From: Saksenaea vasiformis B4078
Lineage: Eukaryota > Mucoromycota > Mucoromycetes > Mucorales > Saksenaeaceae
Assembly (NCBI GenBank): GCA_000697055.1
Contig: JNDT01002321.1
Location: 1 to 64,000 of the forward strand
Direction: 5' to 3'
DNA length: 64,000 nucleotides
The translations under genes were made by a program, and so were the position numbers. The notes under the pieces were generated by a model. It had not been told where the DNA came from and did no database searches. It worked only from the letters and a program-made list of their open reading frames with translations. Shown piece after piece: positions 1 through 31,600 of the stretch. The first letter of the stretch is position 1. Each line of letters starts with the position of its first letter.

Positions 1-409
1 GCTTATCGGTCAGCTTGGGTCTACGGACAGGACGTCGCGAAGAGAAGCCAAGATCGTGTACCGCTTTGGCAAATGTTCTCAATGACACCTTCATCAGGGT
101 GTCGGAGAATATGGCGCCATGGACCTTCAGGGGCATTCGAGGATCTCGCCGAATATCTCGCTGAATAACTCTACATGACCGTTTGGAAATCTTTTTTGGT
201 CTACCTGGTCTCGGCTTTGATACTGCAGAACCAGACTTTCTCACGTTTTCTACAATGCGTTGAACGGTTGCTCGACTGAGTCCCTTGGCCTTTGCAATCG
301 CGCCATACGACATTCCTGCTTGGTTCATTCCATAAATCGCGGCGCATTCTTCTGGCGAAAACTCGGTATTAGGTTTGCGTGTATTGTTTGAAATATCTGT
401 AAGCGACAT
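1..409 (-). CDS. Tc1/mariner-family transposase, N-terminal part (runs off the left edge)
   Basis: An uninterrupted minus-strand frame starts at the ATG complementary to 407-409 and continues past the window edge, giving about 136 residues. It reads as a Tc1/mariner DNA-binding region: a first helix-turn-helix (SPEECAAIYGMNQAG, then SYGAIAKAKGLSRATVQRIV), a basic GRPKK linker in the position of the AT-hook-like GRPR segment, and a second HTH-like segment ending in TFAKAVHDLGFSSRRP. The catalytic DDE part would lie left of the window. No stop or frameshift is visible, so this copy may be intact. The start sits about 40 bp inside a pair of inverted repeats (451-553) that could be its end structure. 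Family assignment is strong; activity cannot be judged. Confidence 0.8.
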   Translation of the reverse strand, partial: MSLTDISNNTRKPNTEFSPEECAAIYGMNQAGMSYGAIAKAKGLSRATVQRIVENVRKSGSAVSKPRPGRPKKISKRSCRVIQRDIRRDPRMPLKVHGAIFSDTLMKVSLRTFAKAVHDLGFSSRRPVRRPKLTDK

Positions 410-450
410 AGAGAACTTTTTTATACAAAAACTTTTGAGATATTAAGTTA

Positions 451-553
451 CAGATTGCGGAGTTTACTCAATTGCATGCACATTTTTTCCTCGCAGTGTA
501 TATTGTGATGGATAATGCTCCAATATACACACATCAGCGACTTTCGCAATCTG
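451..553. repeat. Nested inverted repeats next to the transposase start
   Basis: Two nested perfect inverted repeats lie just upstream of the transposase ATG. The outer arms are CAGATTGCG (451-459) and CGCAATCTG (545-553). The inner arms are GTGTATATTG (496-505) and CAATATACAC (521-530) around a 15-nt loop. They may be part of the terminal or subterminal structure of the Tc1/mariner element. The other end of the element is outside the window, so no terminal-repeat match or TA target duplication can be confirmed. Confidence 0.5.
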
Positions 554-2171
554 ATTGAGTATTACTATTGTGTTTACATGGCTGGCTCGCAAGAATTCAT
601 GATTCGTCCTTTGATACCCAGTAATGGAATCAAACTACATCTGTGATGCAGCTGGGCGATCGTACCACATGAAAGAGTACAGGATACTCCCTCTTTTTCA
701 TATTTTCCTACAGATAGGTGACTACTGTGCCGTTTAATGACTGAAGCTCTCGGAGCTGCAATGCTTCTTCGCGGGGGGTTCACTTTCTGAGGCACTTGCT
801 TCTAAAGTTTACCTGAATACATACCACTCTTCCTCTCTCAATGTCACTGGCTGAAAAAAGCCAATCATAGTGCAAGATTTGCTTTCGCTTAAATGGAACG
901 TTGGAAGGGAAGCGTGGTATCAATGTAAAAAGGTATAGCTGATAAGTGAGGATGTACTGTTAAGCGGTACAAATGAGAATACTATGATACTGTCGTATAT
1001 CCCTTATTGGAACGGGTTTAACTTCCCTTTCTGTACGCCATCTCAAGTAAAAGTTAGTTTGATGGACTGATTGTAGCTGAGTTTGACTTTTTATGTGGAT
1101 CACTGGTGTGAATACCACAACGATGCTCCCACTTATTCGCGAAATATACTGCGACAGATATTCCCAGAATGTGTGAGAGCTTTCAAGCGTTCGCCGCATA
1201 AAAATGATACAGCTAACGTAATTGAACTCTAGATCAAGCAGATCGTTCATGTGTCAATTTTCACAATCGTACAGCATGACTTTCTAGATATCCCAATGAT
1301 GATACAATCAATTGGCTCCTTACTCTTCACAGCTGTTTTTTCCATAGATCGAACTATTAGAGAGTACAAGCAACTATAAAATCCAGATCTCGATATGATG
1401 TTCACGTAGGCAATGCTCTGCATGAATTTGCCACAGGAAGAGACCACGAAGGAACAAACACACATCAACACGGATATAAAGAAAAACGCAAGTGTTGAGA
1501 TCGATGGATGCGGGAGCTCCAGAGCTGCGGGACTGCCCGGTCACCAAAAACGCAGGATTTTTAGAAAGTTCAGTATCGTTTCAGGCAAGATAAAAACCAA
1601 AAGACGGGTTTCTGGTTAATGCCAAGCAGATCTATATATAAGCGATGCTTTGACGTTTGCGATATCTGTTTTGTTCGTTCCTGGAGGAGGTTTATAAGTC
1701 GATGGAAGGTTTTTGTGTATATGTGGTAAAAAAGAAGTTCTGCGGGATCCTAACTGAAACAGGTTCCACCTAAAGTTGATGCTCTTTCTGTGCCTAACTG
1801 CTAACTTCCTCTTTTTTCTTCTTGGTAATGATAAAGGATGAAAAAGATGTGAGTAGTTCATCAGTTATTCAAATTGCAATAAAATGGAATCTATAGAGGA
1901 TGTTCTTGTAGGATGTGAAGCATTATGCGATCTCACTGCATAGTCCTGAAAATTCATGTTTCACTTACAAGTCTTTCTCCGATCACGAAACGACATAAGG
2001 AGGGCTTCTCATAAAATATTCGATAATACTACAATGTGAACAGGGAGGGTAGTTCAGGATCTTTTAGACAATTATTCAGCTTGTATACGCAATGCGTTAA
2101 GCGATACGGGTACTTTGCTTCCGTTGGGGATCTCCTACTGCTGCCCGGATGCTTATCTTAGACGATTTTAA
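554..2171. other. Gene-poor stretch between transposase and Fanzor gene
   Basis: Only short, low-complexity or overlapping open frames occur here; none has a recognisable motif or a convincing splice-linked partner. It probably contains the 5' region of the Fanzor gene and old repeat sequence. A first Fanzor exon could be hidden near its right end, because the first exon called there has an atypical hydrophobic N-terminus. Confidence 0.4.
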
Positions 2172-5118
2172 ATGTTGTCAATCTCCCTTTTCGTGGCCCT
2201 AGAAAGACAAAATTTATTGGCTTTTCTTTTTTCACTTCCTTCATCTTCAGCAATGTTATTTGAACTATTTTTGTTGCTCTGCCTGTATTGCGTTTTCATT
2301 TTCGTCGATACGCCGAAGAGGATCATTTTTCGAAAGAAAAAGGAGAAGTTACGCTTTGTTGAAGAACAGCAGGAAAGGGAAAGCCTAGAACGGCAGCGAA
2401 GTATGTCTTCAATTATAATGTGCGTTAAACTGATATGATTGCAATCATAGTTGTGTGTTCAAGTTGCGGCGAAAGAGGACATCGTGACAGAAGAAGTAAA
2501 ATATGCCCTAATCGTGCTGCAAACAAAAAGGGTTAGTGATAACGGATATAGTATCTATCCAAATTTTTGTAACGTATCCTTGTAGCTGGAACAAAACGCC
2601 AACGATCGGTTCAGGAAGAAGCCGAAACTTCGATGCGTAAGCGCCGAGGTCGCCAGCAACGCGCGCGAGATACAGCAAATCCCCGAGCCCAGGGGGTTTG
2701 TGCGTCGTGCGGACAGACAGGTCATAAAACGTCTGCATCATCTACATGTCCAAATCATGCTATGAACATCAATGAAAGAATAACCATGAACTTCGGTTCC
2801 GATTGCGAACGATTCACACGCAAGCTCCTTTTTGGCAATGTTGTCAAAGAAGAATTTAAGCAACCACTGCGGGATGGCATCAAGCGACTAAGCACGTTTG
2901 TTCGTGAAGTCGTAGTACGTTCACAACTCTTTGTGAATAGCTACATCATTGAACATAAGGATGTACCTGCGTATGTCTTTACACAATCGTTTTGGTACTC
3001 CGTTATGCAACTTGTCATGGATTCACAGATCACAAATGATAATCCAAATCTTCCAGAAGACGTTACAGAGAGATGGACTTCATTCTGTACGCGGCACCCT
3101 GGAATACAATTTTCGGCGGATCGACCTTCCGGTTACAGCGGCTCCCTTTCGGCCATGTGCAAGACTTTAGCCACCGCGTATAGCACCAATATCGTGGAAA
3201 ATTTCGAAACACGCGTCACTTTCTATATAGAACGTAGACTGAGCAAGGAAATGGAGGTATGGATATGAGGTCATTCTAGAAAGTGCTAATCTTGATGCGT
3301 TGTTCAGGATCTTGAAAAAGCAAAACTCAAAGCAATCGCATCCGAATATATCTACGAGCGTATTGCCGGTGGCGAGCCTATCTGGCCACAGTGGGTCAGT
3401 GAAGTTTCTGTTGAACTTCATGATCTAGTGGAAAACATATGTCAAGAGTTAGAACCTCTTGTTGTCCGGCCAGCAACTCCACAGACAATCTCACAATTGC
3501 CAGGAGAATATCTACAGGTTATACGATATATACTACTGAATTACGAGGAAGAACATCAGCGTGCCACAAAGGAGACCAAGGACTTACCACGTCTGTTCTC
3601 ATTATGCCCCGTACCCTCCATGCAATGGCGTTTTGTGACAGTTAACGCCGGGACATTGGCAGCTCTAGTTTCAGAAAAGAGTCCAAGAACATATGATGAA
3701 AATACCGCCTTGTTTTGGCGAGTATTTAACTTTCACAAGCTGGGTTTCCAAAGGTATACCTCTATACTCACTGTGAAGATGGCTGAATGACTTCTGTGCT
3801 AACTAGTTTTGAAGATTGGAAGGATCCACAACAACGAGGCATCATGTTTACCAATCAAATTCTCACCGACGGGTTTGCAGTCGACTTACAATTTGCAAGG
3901 AAGGCAAAACCGAAATTTCAGACAGTGGATCTTAGTCTTGATGACTTCTCTGCAGAGGAGGTTGACATGCAGTACCGTGTCTGCGCGGTCGACCCTGGAA
4001 TCAACCAAGTGTTTACCGCCTCATATGGCTGCGGCAATATAGAACATGAAATTCGTCGTTGCTCCAGCAATGAGTATTACCAGAACACGGGTTCGCCTCA
4101 CCGCCGCAAACAGTTGCAAAAGCTGAAAGATACGGCTGGTATGACTAAAATCGAGAGCAAGTTGACGAGCGCGAAGACAAACTCAGTAAAACAGTGTCAT
4201 CAGGGGATCGATGAAATTTTGCTACAAAAGGAAACGCTTTTCGCTTTCTACGGCTTTGATAAGGCTTCAATGCGATTTCGGGGTTATCAAGGCGTGCAGA
4301 GAGCTTCAGAAGAGCTGATCAACGTATTGGTTAATGGTGGCAAGGAGTACAACAGGAGAAGACGAAAGAATACGAAGAAAAACAGGAAGTTACGCAAATA
4401 TCAGAGAAAACGGAAACGACTCAAGGAGAACACATCAAGAGGGAGGTATGTATTTTGCATAATATTTCTCTTTTTCTGAAAAGCGATAGGACCCCTCGAC
4501 AAAATACATCGTCTGTCCGATCCACGCTGCGAATTACACGACCGCGAAAGTGGACGTCGCTGAAATTCCAACAGTCAGAAAAGATTCCGCTTATTGTCTT
4601 TGGAGACGCCATGTTTGGAAAAGATCGCCGATATAAAGGAAAGCGCGGCGGTGTGGTAAAACGGTGTTGGCATATGGTCAAACGACGAGAAACACGAGGC
4701 GAACTTGTAGCAATTAAAGTGGACGAATATTGCACCTCTCAGGTTTGCTTTTGGTAATATTTTGGTTTGGCGCGCTCAACTTGTGATACAGGTATGTCAC
4801 AGATGCATGAGGAAGGGATTAGAGAAAATCAAAACGGCCGATAACATCACGCACCACGGTGTCCTGGTTTGCAAACACTGTAGGACACTGTGGCAGCATG
4901 ACGTTAATGCAAGCAAAAACATGTTCGCCATAGCAAGCAGCATCTGGAGAGGTCATTGGCAACCTAGCGTGTTTTCTCGGCCCACAACGTCAACAAATAT
5001 CACCGTTTCGAATACGGGTTCTTCGTAAGAAGATTTGGATTTTTACGGTTAGTATACTTTGTATGCAATCTATGTTTCATTTACTAATACGATCTTTTCT
5101 AGGTGGTTGCACCGGTAA
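2172..5118 (+). CDS. Fanzor (eukaryotic TnpB-like) RNA-guided endonuclease
   Basis: Exons 2172-2400, 2451-2531, 2586-3256, 3308-3753, 3807-4445, 4490-4742, 4792-5024 and 5103-5118 join in frame to about 855 aa. If the last intron is retained the protein stops at 5028 (851 aa). Domains in order: two CCHC knuckles (CSSCGERGH and CASCGQTGH, each closed by CPN); a helical recognition region; FTNQILTDG just before the nuclease; RuvC-I with DPG (Asp at 3991-3993); VFGDAMFG where TnpB has its RuvC-II Glu; an alternative Glu in VDEYCTSQ (4725-4727); a C4 zinc finger (CHRC...CKHC); and RuvC-III HDVNASKNM (Asp at 4900-4902). This order and the displaced Glu are typical of Fanzor proteins, which cut DNA using a guide RNA made from sequence at or beyond the gene's 3' end. 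The first exon (hydrophobic residues from 2172) is doubtful, and an upstream start exon is possible. No stop codon or frameshift breaks the joined frame. Confidence 0.85.
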
Positions 5119-7194
5119 GACTTCTTCTAAAGGATTGTGTATAATACTCATCATTGAAACGTTTACGATGCTGGAAATGTTTTATGCGTCGCCAAAGATC
5201 AAGTTGAACCCAGTGGTAGCGTATGGCTATGGTAAGTACACAACTGAGAATTTCATGAACACTTTCTATTTTAACTAAACAATTTATATGTAATCTCATG
5301 CTAGGGCAAACTTGGTCTTTAAGCGACGCAAAATCACATTTCCAGAAACGCAAATGTTTCTTCAAAATACAGTAACGGTTGACTAGCCCTTCTCCACTTC
5401 GCTTCGCTCGTTCCATTGCAGCCGCACGCGGCTGGGGCAGACGCCGTATTGTTTTTATTGTTTTTTCTTTTCATCTCACTGTCCGACTGTGGCAAGAGAT
5501 CTCAGAGAAGATGATACGAACTAAGAGCTCTTGTAGCGAAACGATGTGTTGAAGGAGAACCAGCAATTAATTTGCGGATCATACCGTAAGCTAAAAAAAG
5601 ATTCTATTCCAAGCAGAAACTGTAAGGTATACCATAGAAGAAATAGTGAACAGGTATATAATAATAAAATCCGCTGCAAGGCGATATATAGCAATGAATA
5701 TGTCAGCAACAGATGACTTTGCATACAGGACAGACTGAAAAAGGATACGTAACAGAAGAAACATCGAAGGAACATATAGATCCTGTAACTGCACATCCCT
5801 TTCGCCTTGTTATTATTCATAAAAAAATATGATTATGTCGATTACGAAAAAGTGGTCAAGCCTAAAAACGAATATGTTGATTTGCCAATAAATTGTTATT
5901 GGTATTCGCTGCGTCCTACAGCCTTGGTTTCTGCATCAGAGGACTTAGAAACAAAACGAAAGTAATTATGGAGAAAGGCGCGAAAACGCTATGACGATAA
6001 TCGAAGAGGCGGCTGTGTGGGTAAGAAAGATCAAGGTCCTACGGAAATGATCGAAAAACGGACATCAATATGAGAACCACTGTGAGAAGGCGCCCTGTTA
6101 GGAAACAGCACTGAGATTGGCACTTCATTTCAACAAACACGTTCCGATACGTATCAGCCATGATATAGCCTGCATTCGATTCTGCCCGAAGTCCTTCGGA
6201 TTTTTGTTGCTGTCGTGTGCAGAATTTTTACGATAATCAGAAGAACAATGATTAAAAAAAAGATAGTGGTTAGGAGAATGACCGGCAAAAAGTCTTTGGA
6301 CGCAAAAGCTTTGGAAACTGCAGCAAGAATACTGGACCGGTAATCCATTGTAGGATGATACAGAATGAAGAAAATACAGCAATCGAAGGCATGGAAAAAG
6401 GCTACATCACAAAAGGACATTCCAAACCGGGACACACTGAAAGGGATACGTGGCAAGATGAAGTATGGAAAGAACATACATTGTGTAATTGTGAAGATAT
6501 GATGGAAGCAAGATACACTGGGCCGATGTACATGCAGATGTTCATCACAGGAAGCCCTTTTACCTTCGCTTCGCTACGGTGAGCACTTGGCTTTCCATTC
6601 ATCTCTGATTGCACAGCGTTTTCGTCGACTAATATTCCTTAGAAAGAAGATACGGATACATGACGGTGACGAATAGAAATTCAACATAGAGATGTGCACA
6701 TATGGTAAGAACTTGAGGACGTGGCTGTGAGGGAAGAATGATGAAGATGCTATGGGAGTAGCTGAAGAAGAAGTGACATCGGTATAAGCAGCACTGCGAG
6801 AAGACTCATCGCGAGAAAACAGCATTGATATACTATTACAGCAAGTATATTATAATAAACGTAGGCAGTAATGGTTTACCCTCGATCCTGTCTGATATCA
6901 TCTTCCCAATGGCAACAGTCGTAAGCATTTTCCTCAGCAGAAGCTACTCTTGCCTGCTGCTAGGAAAAGCTATCTCCTTGAAGTATCAAAAGTTGTATAC
7001 ACTCAAAACATCCGCCATTGTTTTGGAAAGAAATATAATGAAAAAAAAGAAGAGTTACAGCATAATGAAAGAAGAACAGTAGAAAGTAATCGAAAAAAAG
7101 GAATCACCGTTGACAAATCAGAAGAGAAGAAAAGCTCGGTAAAACGTTTTTGCGCGCAAAAGTTTTTCGAAAATACAGTACATATAGAGTAGAA
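5119..7194. other. Fanzor 3' flank and gene-poor AT-rich DNA
   Basis: No supported gene. The first few hundred bases are the place to look for the Fanzor guide RNA. Open frames further on are short, AT-rich and overlap on opposite strands without motifs. Confidence 0.35.
5419..5434. other. GC-rich hairpin downstream of Fanzor
   Basis: CAGCCGC followed by AC and GCGGCTG forms a perfect 7-bp stem about 300 bp beyond the Fanzor stop, in otherwise AT-rich DNA and followed by T-rich sequence. Fanzor and TnpB guide RNAs are encoded around and after the 3' end of the gene and are structured. This hairpin is therefore a candidate landmark for the guide RNA scaffold or element end, but no RNA boundary can be read from the sequence. 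Confidence 0.3.
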
Positions 7195-25664: not shown

Positions 25665-26857
25665 TTAGTTCAATGCTTCTAGCAATGGACGCAAGACTTC
25701 GACAATCTTGTCACCGACTTCTGTTGTTGATTTGTCACCTTTGAGATCTCTTGTGCGGAAACCATCATCCAAGACTTTTCGCACAGCCGCCTCCACAGCC
25801 TCCGCTTCCTCCTGAAAACCAAGGGAGTATCTTAACAAAAGTGCGGCGCTCAGGATGGTGGCGATGGGGTTGGCCACGTTTTGACCGGCAATATCCGGAG
25901 CCGACCCGTGAATGGGTTCGTACAAACCCACGCATTTGCCCTTACCATCAGGTAGACCGTTGAGCGAAGCAGATGGCAGCAAACCAAGCGAACCAACAAT
26001 GACAGAGGCCTCATCAGACAAGATATCACCAAACATATTTTCCGTCAACACAACACCGTTCAACTTCTTGGGGTTCTGTACCATCGCCATGGCAGCCGAG
26101 TCGACCAGGTGATGTTCGTACTTGATTTCGGGGAATTCGGCGTCCAGGGTTTCAGACACCACCTTACGCCACAGGCGGGAGGTGGCCAGCACATTCGCCT
26201 TGTCGATGGAATGGATTACCTTGGGACCGTTTTGTTTCAAAGCCAGCAGAGCAGCCAGACGTGTCACACGTTGAATTTCCTCAGTGGAGTAAGGAAGGGT
26301 ATCATAGGCCTTGCCATCTTCGCCTGCTTCCTTACGGTCACCAAAGTAGATACCGCCGACCAGTTCGCGAACAAATACAAACTCTGTACCCTGGACAACA
26401 TGATCCTTCAATGGAGACAATCCTGTCAAACTATCCGAAGCAAAGCTGACGGGGCGCAAGTTGGCATAAAGGTCAAGCGACTTGCGCAACTTGAGGAGAC
26501 CTTGCTCGGGTCTTGGTCCACTTCCGATCTGAGCACCAGGAAGTCCTCCAACAGCACCCAACAAAATGGCGTCAGCAGCCTTGCATGCGTTCAGGGCATT
26601 ATCGGGCAACGGGTCATCTTTGTAAAAATTGTTGAGTCAAATCAAATCTCCTCGTCTTTATCTCCTTCTTATATATAACACTTACTTGTTTTTTCCAGAG
26701 CAGCAAGACCAATTAAATGATCTTCAAAAACGAAGTTGACATCGCGTGCTTTGGCTCGGCAGTCGGCAACTACCTTGAGAACCTTGACGGCTTCACCAAC
26801 GACTTCGGGACCAACACCATCACCAGGAAGACACACAATAGAAATAGGACGAGGCAT
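25665..26857 (-). CDS. LEU2: 3-isopropylmalate dehydrogenase
   Basis: Exons 26857-26686 and 26617-25665 give 374 aa. The enzyme oxidatively decarboxylates 3-isopropylmalate to 2-oxoisocaproate in leucine synthesis, normally in the cytosol of fungi. Diagnostic segments: [106 protein letters not shown] and [20 protein letters not shown]. The active-site Arg, Tyr, Lys and Asp positions are present. No mitochondrial presequence is seen. It is followed upstream in the same orientation by ILV5, so two consecutive pathway genes lie head to tail. Confidence 0.96.
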
Positions 26858-27278
26858 GTTTTGAAAGAAGAAGAACAAGAAGAAGAAGGGAGTACGTGAA
26901 AAGAAAAATGGAATAAATGCGTTCATATGCACCGTAAAGCGATAATGATTCATGTTGATTTGGGCCAATCACAAGGCTGATAAAATGCGAGCCTTTCATT
27001 GGTTAGAAGCATGTGTCATTCTGAGGAGTGAGGGAGAGATCATCGTGGAGGCAAAAAAATTAACCGAGACGCGTAACGTTAGCGCGTCTGGGATCTCTCT
27101 AGCATAACGTAGCCACTGTGTGATGAAGATGTGTTTTTTTTCCCTTTTTTTCGGTGTGTTTGTTGTTGATGTGGAAAGAATGAACTTTTTATTTTATTTA
27201 CTTATTCCATATGTTACATGAAAAAAATGGGATGAAAAGAAGAACGAATTTTTGAGAATTGGGCGCAATTTAGGGGAT
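26858..27278. promoter_or_regulatory. LEU2 promoter / ILV5 3' region
   Basis: A 421-bp gap between the ILV5 stop and the LEU2 start (both minus strand). It holds CCAAT-box motifs (GCCAATCAC near 26962 and its complement in CATTGGTT near 26998) and a GC-rich d-yad at 27067-27089. No TGACTCA Gcn4-type site was seen here. It must contain the ILV5 terminator and the LEU2 promoter. Confidence 0.6.
27067..27089. promoter_or_regulatory. Palindrome upstream of LEU2
   Basis: Arms AGACGCG and CGCGTCT surround a palindromic core TAACGTTA plus one G, making a nearly perfect 23-bp dyad about 210 bp upstream of the LEU2 ATG. It has the look of a dimeric regulator site. It does not match the CCGG-N4-CCGG site of yeast Leu3. 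Confidence 0.4.
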
Positions 27279-28588
27279 TTAGTCCTTTCCAGCGTTTTCT
27301 GGTCGCAATTGTCTAACAGTCTTTCCGGCTCTCCAGATTTCAGATTCTCGGATTTCCTTGAGTTCTTCTTCCAGACGCTCACGGTAATCGGGTTGAGAGT
27401 TGCGATCCAAGGAGCGAGCAGTCTCGGATCCATCACGGACAGACTTGTAAAGTTGTTCGAAGACTGGCTTGGAAGCATCGTGGAATGGACGCCACCAATC
27501 CAAAGCACCACGCTGGGCAGTGGTGGAGCAGTTCGAGTACATCCAATCCATACCGCGTTCACCAATCAAGGGATACAAGGACTGAGTAGCCTCTTCCACG
27601 GTTTCATTGAAGGCTTCCGAGGGAGAATGGCCATTGGCGCGAAGCACTTCATACTGAGCTTGGAACAAACCTTGAATAGCACCCATCAACACGCCACGTT
27701 CTCCAAACAAATCGGAGTAGACCTCCTTCTCAAATGTGGTCTCATAAAGATAACCCGATCCAATACCGATACCCAAGGCAATCGTGCGTTCCTTTGCCTT
27801 ACCACTGGCATCTTGGTATACAGCGAACGAAGAGTTGATACCACGACCTTCCTGGAACAAACGACGAACAGTGAAGCCGGAGCCCTTGGGAGCAACAAGA
27901 ACAACGTCGACATCTATAGCAAAATGGTATGATTAACTTAAAACTTCCATCTTTTTTTTCTTTTATCTTTACCTTTGGGAGGGACGACTTCGGTCTGATC
28001 CTTGTAAACGATGGAGAAACCATGGGAGAAGTAGAGGGTCTTTCCGGGAGTGATCAACGGTTTCATCTGAGGCCAAATTTCCTTTTGATAGGCATCGGAC
28101 AACAGGTTCATGACAACAGTACCCTTTTCAACGGCATCCAGCACAGGGAAGAGATTCTTTCCTGGAACCCAACCTTCCTCAATAGCCTGCTGATAGGTCT
28201 TGCCTTCACGCTGACCAATAATCACATTGACACCGTTGTCGCGCAAGTTCAAAGCCTGACCACGACCTTGAGGACCATAACCCAATACGGCGATCGTGTC
28301 ATTCTTAAATGTATCAAGCAACTTCTCTCTGGGGACATCAGAACGTTCATAAACAACTTCCTCGGTACCACCAAAGTTCAATGTCTTGTAACCACGGACC
28401 TGGGCGGGGATCTGTAAAGAGGATGATGATGAATTCACTATTTCATGGGGCAGAGAGGATGATTGACTTACGGTTGCTTTGACAGCCATGGTGGGTGTCA
28501 GCATGCGTGGGGCGACGGATCTCGTCAATGTAGGACGAGCAACACGAGAGGCAGTGCGCAATGCGGTAGCAAGTATTCTGGAGGACAT
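27279..28588 (-). CDS. ILV5: Ketol-acid reductoisomerase (acetohydroxyacid isomeroreductase), mitochondrial
   Basis: Exons 28588-28472, 28411-27973 and 27913-27279 give 396 aa, the usual fungal length. The enzyme converts acetolactate and acetohydroxybutyrate to dihydroxy acids using NADPH in mitochondria. A basic, acid-free N-terminus (MSSRILATALRTASRVARPT) fits a mitochondrial targeting peptide. Domains: Rossmann fold IAVLGYGPQGRGQALNLRD with NVIIGQREGKTYQQA, substrate region LYFSHGFSIVYKDQTEVVPP, VVLVAPKGSGFTVRRLF, then the C-terminal knotted domain with SDLFGERGVLMGAIQGLFQ and the metal-binding ETVEEATQSLYPLIGERGMD. Its start is 814 bp from the divergent ILV2 start. Confidence 0.96.
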
Positions 28589-29043
28589 GGGGGGAAGGAT
28601 GAGAAGAACGAGGAAGAAAGAAAGAGAGGAACAACCGAACGGTTTTGTAGACTGAACCCACATTGGGGAGTTGGCTTTTTTAGCATGACATGAAAAACTC
28701 CGCTCTTCCGACATCTGGAGTACACAAAGCAAACGGTTGACAGGTAAAAAAGTATCTCGTCCTCTTTTTTTTTTTTAGATTTCTGGAAGATAAAAAAAGA
28801 AATTTATTGATTGGCAAGCTTATTATCATTTCAGTGTAGAAATAGAAAAAAGAAAAGAGTAAATAAAGAAGTGTGGGGGGAGGAAGATGTGGTAACAAGG
28901 AGTCATGATGAGGAAAGACATTGGATTGGATGGTGAGCAAAAGCGATACATCTTGCGTGTTAGCCAATCATTAGCCATGTGATACTTATCTTATCAATGC
29001 AAACGACAAAAGTAGATTTGGCAGCGGAGCAATTTGATTGGTG

Positions 29044-29050
29044 TGACTCA
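29044..29050. promoter_or_regulatory. Gcn4/CPC1-type site TGACTCA
   Basis: Exact match to the TGASTCA consensus bound by the fungal amino-acid starvation activator Gcn4/CPC1, about 360 bp upstream of ILV2 and adjacent to a TGATTGG box. The 7-mer also occurs by chance elsewhere in the window, for example in the NDUFA1 intron near 17996 and within XPO1. Confidence 0.5.
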
Positions 29051-29224
29051 TCTCGCATCCCTCCCCCCAATACAACAAGGAAGGGTGTTCCGAGGAAGAA
29101 ATAGAAGAAGAAGAATAGAACTATATTGTTCATAACGAGGTGTACAGTTCTATAGAATAGAGTATAATAGAAAATGATAAAATATGTTGATTGGTTGTGA
29201 TTTCAAGTAAAAGAACGATCGTTT

Positions 29225-29231
29225 TGACTCA
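29225..29231. promoter_or_regulatory. Second Gcn4/CPC1-type site TGACTCA
   Basis: A second exact TGACTCA 172 bp upstream of the ILV2 ATG, within a typical distance for an activator site. A related TTGACTCT lies near 29331. Confidence 0.5.
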
Positions 29232-29402
29232 CATTCATTCAGTCGCCGTCGCAAAGATGATTCGTCCTACTCCACTTTTTTGTAAAGATTATTTCAAATG
29301 CAGACAGACGCACATGGAAAGTCCATATATTTGACTCTTTGTTTTTTTTGTTTTTTTTTGTTCTTTCTTCAAATCGTCTTTTTGTTTCTTTTCTTTCTGT
29401 CA

Positions 29403-31600
29403 ATGTTTGCAACGACAAGAAATTCTGCAAGGTTCCTTCCACAAAGGACAGCGCTTTATCGACAACGTTTTGCTCCAGCTGCATGTTTGATTCATACCAC
29501 CCGTAAATCGAAAAGTGCTGCAGCTATCAAGTAAATGGAATTTATATATAAAAATGTGAATCTCATATATAACTAACGTCCCCCCCTTTTTTTTATAGTG
29601 TGAATTCTCAACCATCTTCCGGTCATTCTACTTCGCCTAAACAACAAAAGTTACATCCACTTGTCAAACAACAAGTTCAAGAAGATGTTGATCATTCATT
29701 TGTTGGAAAATCCGGTGGTGAGATTTTTCATGAAATGATGCTCAGACATGATGTCAAGCATATCTTTGGTTACCCTGGTGGTGCTATTTTACCCGTCTTT
29801 GACGCCATTCATGAATCGAAATACTTCCAATTCATTCTACCAAGGCATGAACAAGGTGCTGGCCATATGGCAGAAGGTTATGCACGCGCAACGTAAGACA
29901 ACGATTTTTTTTGTGTTCCCTATTTATTTATTTTGACACATTCTTTTTCTACTATACTCTAGTGGTAAACCTGGTGTTGTTCTTGTGACATCTGGACCCG
30001 GAGCAACAAACGTCGTTACTGCCATGGCCGACGCTTTGGCTGATGGTACTCCTCTTGTTGTATTTACTGGTCAAGTACCAACAACTGCCATTGGCACTGA
30101 TGCTTTCCAAGAAGGTAAATAACAATACGAGAAGTTGGATGTATCTTATTAACAACCTGTTGCTTTTTATTAGCTGATGTCGTTGGTATTTCCCGTGGCT
30201 GTACCAAGTGGAACGTGATGGTCAAGGACATTGCTGAACTTCCTCGTCGTATTAACGAAGCATTTACGATTGCTACCAGCGGCCGACCAGGACCTGTACT
30301 TGTCGATCTACCCAAAGACGTAACAGCTGGCATTCTGCGACGTCCGATTCCCACCAACGCATTGATTCCCTCCCGTCCTGCACCCATTCCTAACACGGCT
30401 ATTGGGGCATTTACCGAGGAAGCCGAATCAAAGCCCCACCATTCGCTCCTTAAGGCCGCCCAGTTGATCAATCAGGCCAAACGTCCTGTTATCTATGCAG
30501 GTCAAGGTGTTCTTGGCCATCCAGAAGGCTCCAAGTACCTGCGAGCCTTGGCAAACAATGGTAATATCCCTGTCACAACCACCTTGTGTGGACTCGGTGC
30601 TTTTGATGAAATGGATCCCAAGTCTCTTCACATGCTTGGCATGCACGGTTCATGTTACGCCAACTTGGCAATGCAGAATGCTGATTTGATTATTGCTCTT
30701 GGTGCTCGTTTTGACGATCGTGTTACGGGTAATGTTAAGGCCTTTGCCCCCGAAGCCATTCGTGCAGCAAAAGAAGGTCGCGGCGGTATCTTGCACTTTG
30801 AAATCATGCCCAAGAATATCAACAAGGTGGTCGAAGCTACCGAAGCCATTGAAGGCGACGTCACCGAGAACATCAAGAAAATGCTGCCTCACATTGAAAG
30901 TTTGGAACGTAAGGACTGGTTTGAGACAATTCACGGCTGGAAGGAAAAGTATCCCTTCTTCTACGAGAAACCCACGTCGGATAGCGAACCCTTGAAACCA
31001 CAGCAGTTGATTGAGGAATTGAACAGACAAACAATGGACAAGAAGGAAGACGTCATTATTACCACCGGCGTCGGTCAGCATCAGATGTGGGCGGCTCAAC
31101 TGTACCGCTGGAGACATCCTAGAACCTTCATTACCTCGGGTGGTTTGGGTACGATGGGTTATGGCCTTCCTAGCGCCATTGGTGCCAAGGTGGCGCAACC
31201 AGATAAAATCGTTGTCGACATTGACGGTGATGCCTCGTTTTCCATGACAGCTATGGAATTGGCTACTGCAGCTGAATTTAATATCGGTGTCAAGGTCTTG
31301 CTTCTGAATAACTCCTTCCAAGGTATGGTCAAGCAATGGCAAGATTTATTCTATGAAAACCGGTATTCGGGTACCACCATGAAAAACCCGGACTTTGTCA
31401 AGCTGGCTGAAGCCATGGGCGTCAAGGCGATCCGTGTCACCAAAACGTCGGAGATCCCGGAAAAGATGGCCGAATTCCTTGCTCATGATGGCCCCGTTTT
31501 AATGGACGCTGTGGTCTGTAAAAAAGAACATCTTTTCCCCATGGTTCCTGCAGGAAAGGCACTCAATGACTTTATTATTCATCCCAAACTTCAAAAGTAA
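29403..31600 (+). CDS. ILV2: Acetolactate synthase catalytic subunit, mitochondrial
   Basis: Exons 29403-29530, 29599-29892, 29963-30114 and 30174-31600 give 666 aa. This ThDP enzyme makes acetolactate and acetohydroxybutyrate, the first common step of valine/isoleucine synthesis, in mitochondria. An Arg-rich N-terminus ([20 protein letters not shown]) is a likely presequence. The ThDP glutamate lies in [20 protein letters not shown]. Further family motifs are [71 protein letters not shown]-like [20 protein letters not shown] and the ThDP-Mg motif [20 protein letters not shown]. The C-terminus [16 protein letters not shown] is conserved. Promoter shared with ILV5. Confidence 0.97.

Follow-up and report, generated by a model that had tools for sequence, protein, structure and literature searches.

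Fanzors are RNA-guided nucleases of eukaryotes. The window analysed here, the first 64,000 nucleotides of contig JNDT01002321.1 (forward strand) from the Mucorales fungus Saksenaea vasiformis B4078 (assembly GCA_000697055.1), contains an intron-rich Fanzor1 gene whose 3' end is a structured region with a conserved architecture. The best explanation is that the gene is carried by a copy of a Tc1/mariner-like, non-autonomous transposon family and that its 3' end probably encodes a structured guide (omega) RNA, a reading that, leaving the splicing step aside, is given a probability of about 0.7. The guide RNA may in addition be matured by the removal of one or often two spliceosomal-type introns located in its loops, a tentative proposal held at somewhat less than even odds.

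Structured 3' region

About seven Fanzor subfamilies, by our own grouping, have a structured 3' region in common. It is built in a fixed order from a hairpin over the end of the coding sequence (SL-A), a hairpin around the stop codon (SL-B), the motif GATTTAGATTTTTACG, a predicted intron (intron A), and the motif GTGnnnnCAYCGGTAAG, mostly followed by a long terminal hairpin (SL-D) with an intron-like segment (segment B) in its loop. Positions 5130-5374 of the window fold at -69.4 kcal/mol (z = -5.24), and none of 200 shuffles folds as low. The next 245 bases give z = -1.80 with 12 of 200 shuffles as low.

Conservation of the RNA structure is supported by covariation. The 3' region was aligned with 14 relatives found by protein similarity alone; L020 and L033 were excluded beforehand for their differing ends, L030 was dropped because it breaks off, and the resulting alignment has 14 sequences (A1). 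The structure contains 17 cells with changes on both sides of a pair, a value reached by 0 of 500 shuffles and falling to at most 5 when the structure is slid along the alignment. Five pairs have a both-side change (21 of 500 shuffles as high). A wider test listed 29 stretches, omitted L020 for its longer SL-B, and aligned the remaining 28. Here SL-A and SL-B are paired in 94.2% of cells and have 29 both-side cells in 8 pairs, a count that none of 500 shuffles reaches and that drops to 4 or fewer when slid, with both-side change in 5 pairs (15 of 500 shuffles as high). One SL-A pair is U-A in 12, G-C in 8, and C-G in 7 of the 28 sequences. The shuffles overstate the odds because the 28 sequences are related and all except L030 were chosen by the intron A motif; the slid controls preserve this relatedness. 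Over the whole window, no Rfam family reaches its gathering score. RNAalifold gave no useful consensus for 16 spliced terminal hairpins (-1.9 kcal/mol) because the arms of SL-D align poorly.

The multicopy subfamily of L036, L037, and L051 (on C561, C569, and C407) is built without SL-D and segment B and keeps intron A, the stop-codon region, and, in these copies, a right end. Its 3' region may represent a naturally short scaffold.

Predicted introns in the 3' region

Intron A has GT-AG borders in all 14 sequences of A1. Among seven subfamily representatives its flanks are 89% and 84% identical and its interior 40%. Segment B starts with GTAAG or GTGAG and finishes with TAG in 18 of 18 delimited sequences, representing four subfamily types besides the window family. 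An excision control compared removal of the introns with 100 random cuts of equal lengths in the 23 of 34 distinct sequences whose right end could be placed; in each of the 18 with segment B, at most 5 of the 100 random cuts were as good. This control mainly shows that introns A and B are placed in loops. Together with the border signatures, the placement suggests that both may be removed by splicing of the spliceosomal type.

The intron-spanning pattern was also counted across the genome. In the 38.7 Mb, 666-contig host assembly, TTACGGTNNG-N(36-66)-AGNTGNNNNCAYCGGTAA has 47 exact loci, and 0 when read backwards; the window has one, and 100 window shuffles have none. A Fanzor coding match lies just upstream of this 3' motif in 43 of the 47 loci, the comparison covering all except those on C37, C121, C438, and C609. 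These 43 comprise 28 by comparison with listed matches (21 of the 137 to PF07282 and 63 of the 108 to the window protein), L028, and all 14 of the loci that were fetched.

Fanzor1 identity of the protein

The match of the protein to Fanzor is beyond chance by homology. Pfam PF07282 (Cas12f1-like TNB / OrfB zinc ribbon) is found above its cut-off at residues 763-817 of an 855-residue model of the gene (E = 1.6e-8, 35 bits versus 26.3). As a single sequence the window protein reaches E = 0.31 at best in the PDB, and a profile made from it and five Mucorales homologues matches SpuFz1 at 1.3e-11 and GtFz1 at 2.1e-9. Database homologues at E <= 0.001 number five, from Mucor flavus, Rhizomucor pusillus, Rhizopus microsporus (two), and Parasitella parasitica; a profile from alignment A2 found no further ones at that threshold among the best 8000 candidates scored. 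PpFz1 was not reached by the sequence profiles.

Of the Fanzor architecture listed in an earlier note on this sequence, the TDG block, the RuvC-I Asp (within DPG), the zinc finger with its four Cys, and the RuvC-III Asp are present, and so is the alternative Glu; the spacing is DPG-x227-E-x6-CxxC-x21-CxxC-x6-D. DPG at RuvC-I combined with a Glu repositioned to six residues before the finger is the mark of Fanzor1 in the excerpted text of Yoon et al. (PMC10711439), and the window protein has both. Two spacings exceed the 120-160 and 12-18 of that excerpt, ranges given there for a TnpB search. Of the Fanzor1 motif as excerpted from Bao and Jurka (2013), D-X(125,275)-[TS]-[TS]-X-X-[C4]-X(5,50)-RD, the protein has every element but the Arg of RD, which is His in this copy.

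A predicted structure of the Mucor homologue P0001, a stand-in for the window protein with a mean pLDDT (predicted local distance difference test) of 63, has the Fanzor1 fold, and its best Foldseek match is PpFz1. Fanzor2 entries are weak in this fold search, a weakness that excludes nothing. The earlier identification of a Fanzor in a fungus is thus borne out by Pfam, the PDB profile match, the hallmark residues, and the fold of the homologue, and on these grounds the protein is classed as a Fanzor1. It would act as an RNA-guided DNA nuclease.

Gene model and corrected ends

The earlier note had assembled a complete-looking gene from eight exons (2172-2400, 2451-2531, 2586-3256, 3308-3753, 3807-4445, 4490-4742, 4792-5024, and 5103-5118). 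GT/AG borders are present at all eight, and the joined exons are open for 855 codons plus a stop, as claimed. The start and the last exon, by contrast, are not supported. All seven sister copies that span position 2192 carry an extra base after it, so the first 27 residues of the 855-residue model are open in the window copy alone, and the true start codon is most likely 2253. The last exon requires a donor at 5025, whereas the donor of relatives aligns with 5048. With that donor the stop stays at 5026-5028, and the corrected protein has 824 residues, encoded with six coding introns. Among relatives at about 35-55% identity, tblastn pieces of many break near the same places; intron richness is therefore a family trait and no mark of domestication.

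The N-terminus precedes two zinc knuckles. The pattern C-x2-C-x4-H-x7-C has only two matches in the six frames of the window, both in this gene. The two CCHC knuckles reported earlier are present as patterns, and Pfam zinc-knuckle models match below their cut-offs. Tandem knuckles before the Fanzor core occur at 8 of 15 relatives' loci, and a single knuckle at the other 7. A hydrophobic stretch followed by a basic coil is common to seven sequences (window, L013, L016, L020, L024, L025, and L031; frame and end of L020, L025, and L031 were chosen by hand). Kyte-Doolittle hydrophobicity is strong in the window (2.39) and L025 (2.57) and 1.2-1.7 in the other five. The number of 2000 exon shuffles reaching the observed value is 0 for the window, 10 for L020, 11 for L025, 149 for L024, 154 for L016, 228 for L013, and 685 for L031. 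A membrane anchor or targeting signal is possible at this N-terminus, and in some of these proteins the hydrophobic segment and tandem knuckles may anchor the protein or handle RNA.

A transposon copy and its sisters

Searched at the DNA level, the host genome has 28 matches. One is the window itself, ten are places with 92-97% identity, and the remaining 17 are short stretches with 67-78%. The right end CAGTA at 5374 is common to the window and C250, C481, C595, C54, and C656, and the flanks beyond it differ; all six right ends seen finish in TA. With the ten near-identical places, these shared ends and differing flanks mark the gene, by comparison of its copies, as a transposon copy, the first of the two origins, recent element or domesticated gene, that the earlier note had left open. 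"Recent" holds in a relative sense: the copies are about 3-8% apart, and no longer sister is intact.

As part of the reading given above, the family is probably Tc1/mariner-like and non-autonomous. Loci of four sister copies are alike upstream beyond window position 497, where they share a degenerate transposase region (in L060, DDE_3 at E = 0.0015, below cut-off). The element's own 5' end is lost in the window copy. The genome has at least 157 DDE_3 matches (best 150 of 237 candidates scored), and movement by a transposase in trans is plausible because such matches are abundant.

Three side observations concern these copies. C380:69841 (L042) is a close copy in which other sequence replaces the 3' RNA region. 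The contig-end copies C250:1-3116 and C146:1-1521 have private frameshifts and a stop in common, so they may be one copy split or an assembly duplication. A second terminal-repeat-like end, TACTGTATTTTCGAAAAACTTTTGCGCG, lies at 7155-7181 on the minus strand and resembles the right end of the Fanzor element.

State of the window copy

Among the nine longer copies compared, the window copy is the only one whose frame from 2253 is without a stop, frameshift, or truncation. Of its eight longer sisters, C250, C481, and C380 have several lesions each, and the other five are cut off or lesioned too; C287 and C665 break off mid-gene, and C439 and C146 do so at contig ends. Stops in exon 1 (codon 2388 in two copies, 2346 in one) fit decay.

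Selection was gauged by the ratio of non-synonymous to synonymous substitution rates (dN/dS) against the majority base of the close copies. The window copy has 0.51 (18 synonymous, 32 non-synonymous) and the decayed C250 has 0.50 (16 and 28). The other values are 0.85 for C481, 0.36 for C380, 0.52 for C595, and 0.24-0.39 for the partial C439, C146, C287, and C665. As the window value is no lower than that of C250, there is no sign of special selection on the window copy. In the close copies, greater conservation of the 3' region than of the introns was not clearly seen (1, 2, 3, and 7 differences per 339-346 bases). CpG-driven decay of the window copy was considered and rejected, since CpG accounts for 9 of 74 substitutions and is not dominant.

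The catalytic Asp-Glu-Asp is retained. The claim that all catalytic residues are retained does not extend to the Arg beside the RuvC-III Asp, which is replaced by His, a change private to the window copy among close copies, whose majority has Arg. Arg occupies this site in 63 of 68 aligned rows, which overlap and hence are not independent; of the five rows with His, four come from overlapping loci that all belong to the window copy itself. Loss of the 5' end and this suspicious substitution mean that the window copy may be impaired.

Scale in the genome

At least 137 matches to PF07282 were counted in the genome (best 150 of 388 candidates scored), many of them fragments, and the window protein has at least 108 exon-level matches (63 of 749 candidates scored). 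The contigs with the best TNB matches (C531, C666, and C565) are without the 3' motif, which makes it likely that the genome has further Fanzor groups. The zinc-ribbon matches make this genome a good natural system for what Fanzors do for transposons, and the 47 motif loci are a ready set for testing the spliced-guide idea.

Elsewhere in the window, genes for an isopropylmalate dehydrogenase-like protein, ketol-acid reductoisomerase, and acetolactate synthase, all of branched-chain amino acid synthesis, adjoin at 25668-31597. Such side-by-side placement of branched-chain amino acid genes is unusual in a fungus. The acetolactate synthase is 93% identical to that of Apophysomyces sp. BC1015, the next being Halteromyces radiatus at 87%, so that by this protein the host belongs to Mucorales and is probably close to Apophysomyces.

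Table 1. Features of the Fanzor1 element and its surroundings, in window coordinates.
Feature	Position	Strand	Remarks
Other Tc1/mariner-type transposase, N-terminus	2..442	-	Occupies the place expected for the 5' end of the element; continues past the contig edge
5' part of element common to sister copies	497..2171	+	From 497, tail of degenerate transposase region
Exon 1	2253..2400	+	Likeliest start codon 2253; hydrophobic N-terminal segment MLFELFLLLCLYCVFIFVD, then basic coil; 49 residues, matching L013, L016, L024; upstream frame broken in 7 of 7 sister copies reaching 2192
Exon 2	2451..2531	+	First zinc knuckle, C-x2-C-x4-H-x7-C, at 2456-2506
Exon 3	2586..3256	+	Second zinc knuckle at 2699-2749; REC/WED part probably begins (from fold of homologue)
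Exon 4	3308..3753	+	REC part
Exon 5	3807..4445	+	TDG block; RuvC-I DPG, Asp511 codon 3991-3993
Exon 6	4490..4742	+	Repositioned RuvC-II Glu741, codon 4725-4727, six residues before zinc finger
Exon 7, to stop TAA 5026-5028	4792..5028	+	C4 zinc finger, Cys codons 4795, 4804, 4870, 4879
RuvC-III Asp783	4900..4902	+	In exon 7; preceded by His (4897-4899) where relatives have Arg
RNA hairpin SL-A	5003..5017	+	Over coding end; covariation, 28 sequences
RNA hairpin SL-B	5020..5033	+	Around stop codon, GUAA loop; covariation, 28 sequences
Motif TTACG/intron A/GTGnnnnCAYCGGTAA	5043..5118	+	Halves can pair once spliced (SL-C)
Predicted intron A	5048..5102	+	GTTAGT ... TACTAAT ... CTAG
Long terminal hairpin SL-D	5156..5360	+	Closes 14 bases before right end in window
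Intron-like segment B	5232..5304	+	In SL-D loop; GTAAGT ... AACTAAAC ... CTAG
Element right end CAGTA	5374	+	Shared with five sister copies

Proposed mechanism

A transcript of the locus would be spliced into mRNA for the 824-residue nuclease; the structured guide RNA would come from the 3' end of this locus, starting at the last codons and extending to the right end. The scaffold would end at 5374 and neighbouring host DNA would supply the guide which, by analogy with SpuFz1, would be the next 14-20 bases of the flank. The guide precursor would carry one, often two, spliceosomal-type introns in its loops. A transposase acting in trans would remove the element, the nuclease would cut the empty site left behind, and repair from an intact copy would restore the element, so that guide use and cutting would contribute to retention. 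In its general form the proposal is that, in this Mucorales Fanzor1 clade, the nuclease pre-mRNA provides the guide precursor at its 3' end and this precursor, which contains up to two introns, needs splicing in order to fold; the chances of this are judged to be somewhat below even.

Several observations weigh against a guide RNA of this extent or against its splicing. In covariation, the number of further pair types is unexceptional both in A1 (10, with 490 of 500 shuffles as high) and in SL-A and SL-B of the 28 sequences (8, with 499 of 500 as high). SL-A and SL-B of the window alone fold no better than shuffles (43 of 200 as low), and the argument for them rests on covariation because single-sequence folding is unremarkable. 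The helix across intron A, SL-C, is invariant in A1, which proves nothing; it yields almost no covariation because its pairing is nearly invariant. Segment B is lacking in L036/L037, L073/L077, and L074, the subfamilies of L036 and L037 also being without SL-D, and L086 has TAT at the expected segment B acceptor. In the five sequences without segment B, 3, 4, 18, 26, and 31 of 100 random cuts were as good as intron removal, so that excision is little or no better than random in L073 (18), L037 (26), and L036 (31). C380 has lost similarity right after the stop codon and with it the 3' region, and a search of the fetched 5' regions revealed no matching left terminal repeat for the element.

Length is a further difficulty. 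Guide RNAs of Fz1 proteins are 75-150 nucleotides long in the available text of PMC11423790, and a spliced scaffold reaching from SL-A to the right end would be about 244. Given these lengths, SL-A, SL-B, and intron A might be parts of the mRNA, with the guide RNA confined to the terminal part. Taken to its end, the argument makes the guide RNA the last ~70-150 nucleotides only, derived from unspliced or separate transcripts, and makes introns A and B with SL-A and SL-B an ordinary 3' untranslated region. In its favour, the stretch after segment B is 70 nucleotides, and there are subfamilies without segment B. Against it stand the strong covariation of SL-A and SL-B and their overlap with the coding end, as the GtFz1 guide RNA overlaps its gene (PMC10432273, as excerpted), and the finding that, in the 18 sequences with segment B, hardly any random cut preserves the fold as well as excision of both segments does. 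This short guide is possible, at clearly less than even odds. SL-D also looks like the right terminal repeat in inverted form and could function at the DNA level, as transposase sites or as a nested miniature inverted-repeat transposable element: its 5' arm from TACTCAT resembles, by eye, the reverse complement of the right end TACTGTATTTT, and a similar end occurs at 7181. Terminal repeats cannot account for SL-A and SL-B, and the loop of SL-D holds intron signatures in four subfamily types as well as in the window family; that SL-D is a DNA-level repeat in place of an RNA structure seems rather unlikely.

The status of the single copy is a separate matter. The window copy could be a domesticated host gene kept for a cellular function, in keeping with the only lesion-free frame among the nine longer copies and the missing transposon 5' end. 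Its dN/dS is like that of a dead sister, a nearly invariant Arg is replaced, and it is merely ~3-8% diverged from the sister copies, and this origin is considered very improbable. On copy number, common right end, and dN/dS, the domesticated, selected gene envisaged in the earlier note is unsupported. That the window copy is a dead transposon copy, intact by chance, is quite conceivable at not far short of even odds, with its longer sisters broken or cut, its 5' end lost, and its Arg changed to His; against this, 824 codons are without stop or shift, compared with several lesions in each of C250, C481, and C380, the three longest sisters. A dead window copy leaves the family-level RNA result unaffected.

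To our knowledge, little is known of how Fanzor guide RNAs are made in intron-rich hosts. An intron-bearing guide-RNA precursor, if true, would be a new twist on a known system. Conserved introns in the precursor would tie nuclease activity to the spliceosome, and an RNA-guided nuclease would then rely on the host nucleus for maturation of its guide. Such introns would also explain a possible failure of simple genomic cloning of these loci.

Comparison with known systems

Fanzor1 proteins in Mucorales transposons have been known since 2013, with 10 families in Mucor circinelloides (PMC3627910, in excerpt), and nuclease activity of Fanzors was reported in 2023 (PMC10432273, in excerpt). No spliced Fanzor guide RNA is evident in the titles and abstract openings of the papers listed by the literature searches, and those searches also revealed no conserved intron-bearing 3' RNA, no tandem knuckles with a hydrophobic N-terminus, and no expansion as large as the one in this host. 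In the text at hand, "knuckle" and "CCHC" are absent from the main text of PMC11423790, "zinc knuckle" and "intron" from PMC10711439, and "intron", "spliced", and "exon" from PMC10432273.

The Fanzor1 families of Mucor circinelloides, Rhizopus, and Phycomyces (Bao and Jurka 2013) are alike in belonging to Mucorales and to DNA transposons, Tc1/mariner among the carriers. They differ in that the Mucorales families are MuDr-type or unclassified, and the excerpted description mentions no structured or spliced 3' RNA, tandem knuckles, or hydrophobic N-terminus. PpFz1 of Parasitella parasitica (PDB 9cf0, 9cf1), likewise from Mucorales, is the closest in fold to the homologue model and differs in having a 75-nucleotide guide RNA and a cyclophilin-binding RuvC insertion (PMC11423790, in excerpt). 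GtFz1 of Guillardia theta is alike in profile and fold and in a guide RNA that overlaps the coding end; it differs in using Asn as the third catalytic residue and in a 150-nucleotide guide RNA, for which the excerpt mentions no introns.

SpuFz1 of Spizellomyces punctatus (Fanzor1, PDB 8gkh) has the same RuvC with repositioned Glu, zinc ribbon, and fold, and it too is a transposon-borne multicopy family. It is encoded by a single open reading frame in a 2.1-kb locus with a 75-nucleotide scaffold, in the available text, whereas the coding part of the window gene is interrupted by six introns, its protein has two zinc knuckles near the N-terminus, and its 3' region is longer, with introns predicted there. 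The SpuFz1 guide RNA lies between the stop codon and the right end, with the flank supplying its guide (PMC10432273, in excerpt), and in the corresponding place the window has a covarying structure.

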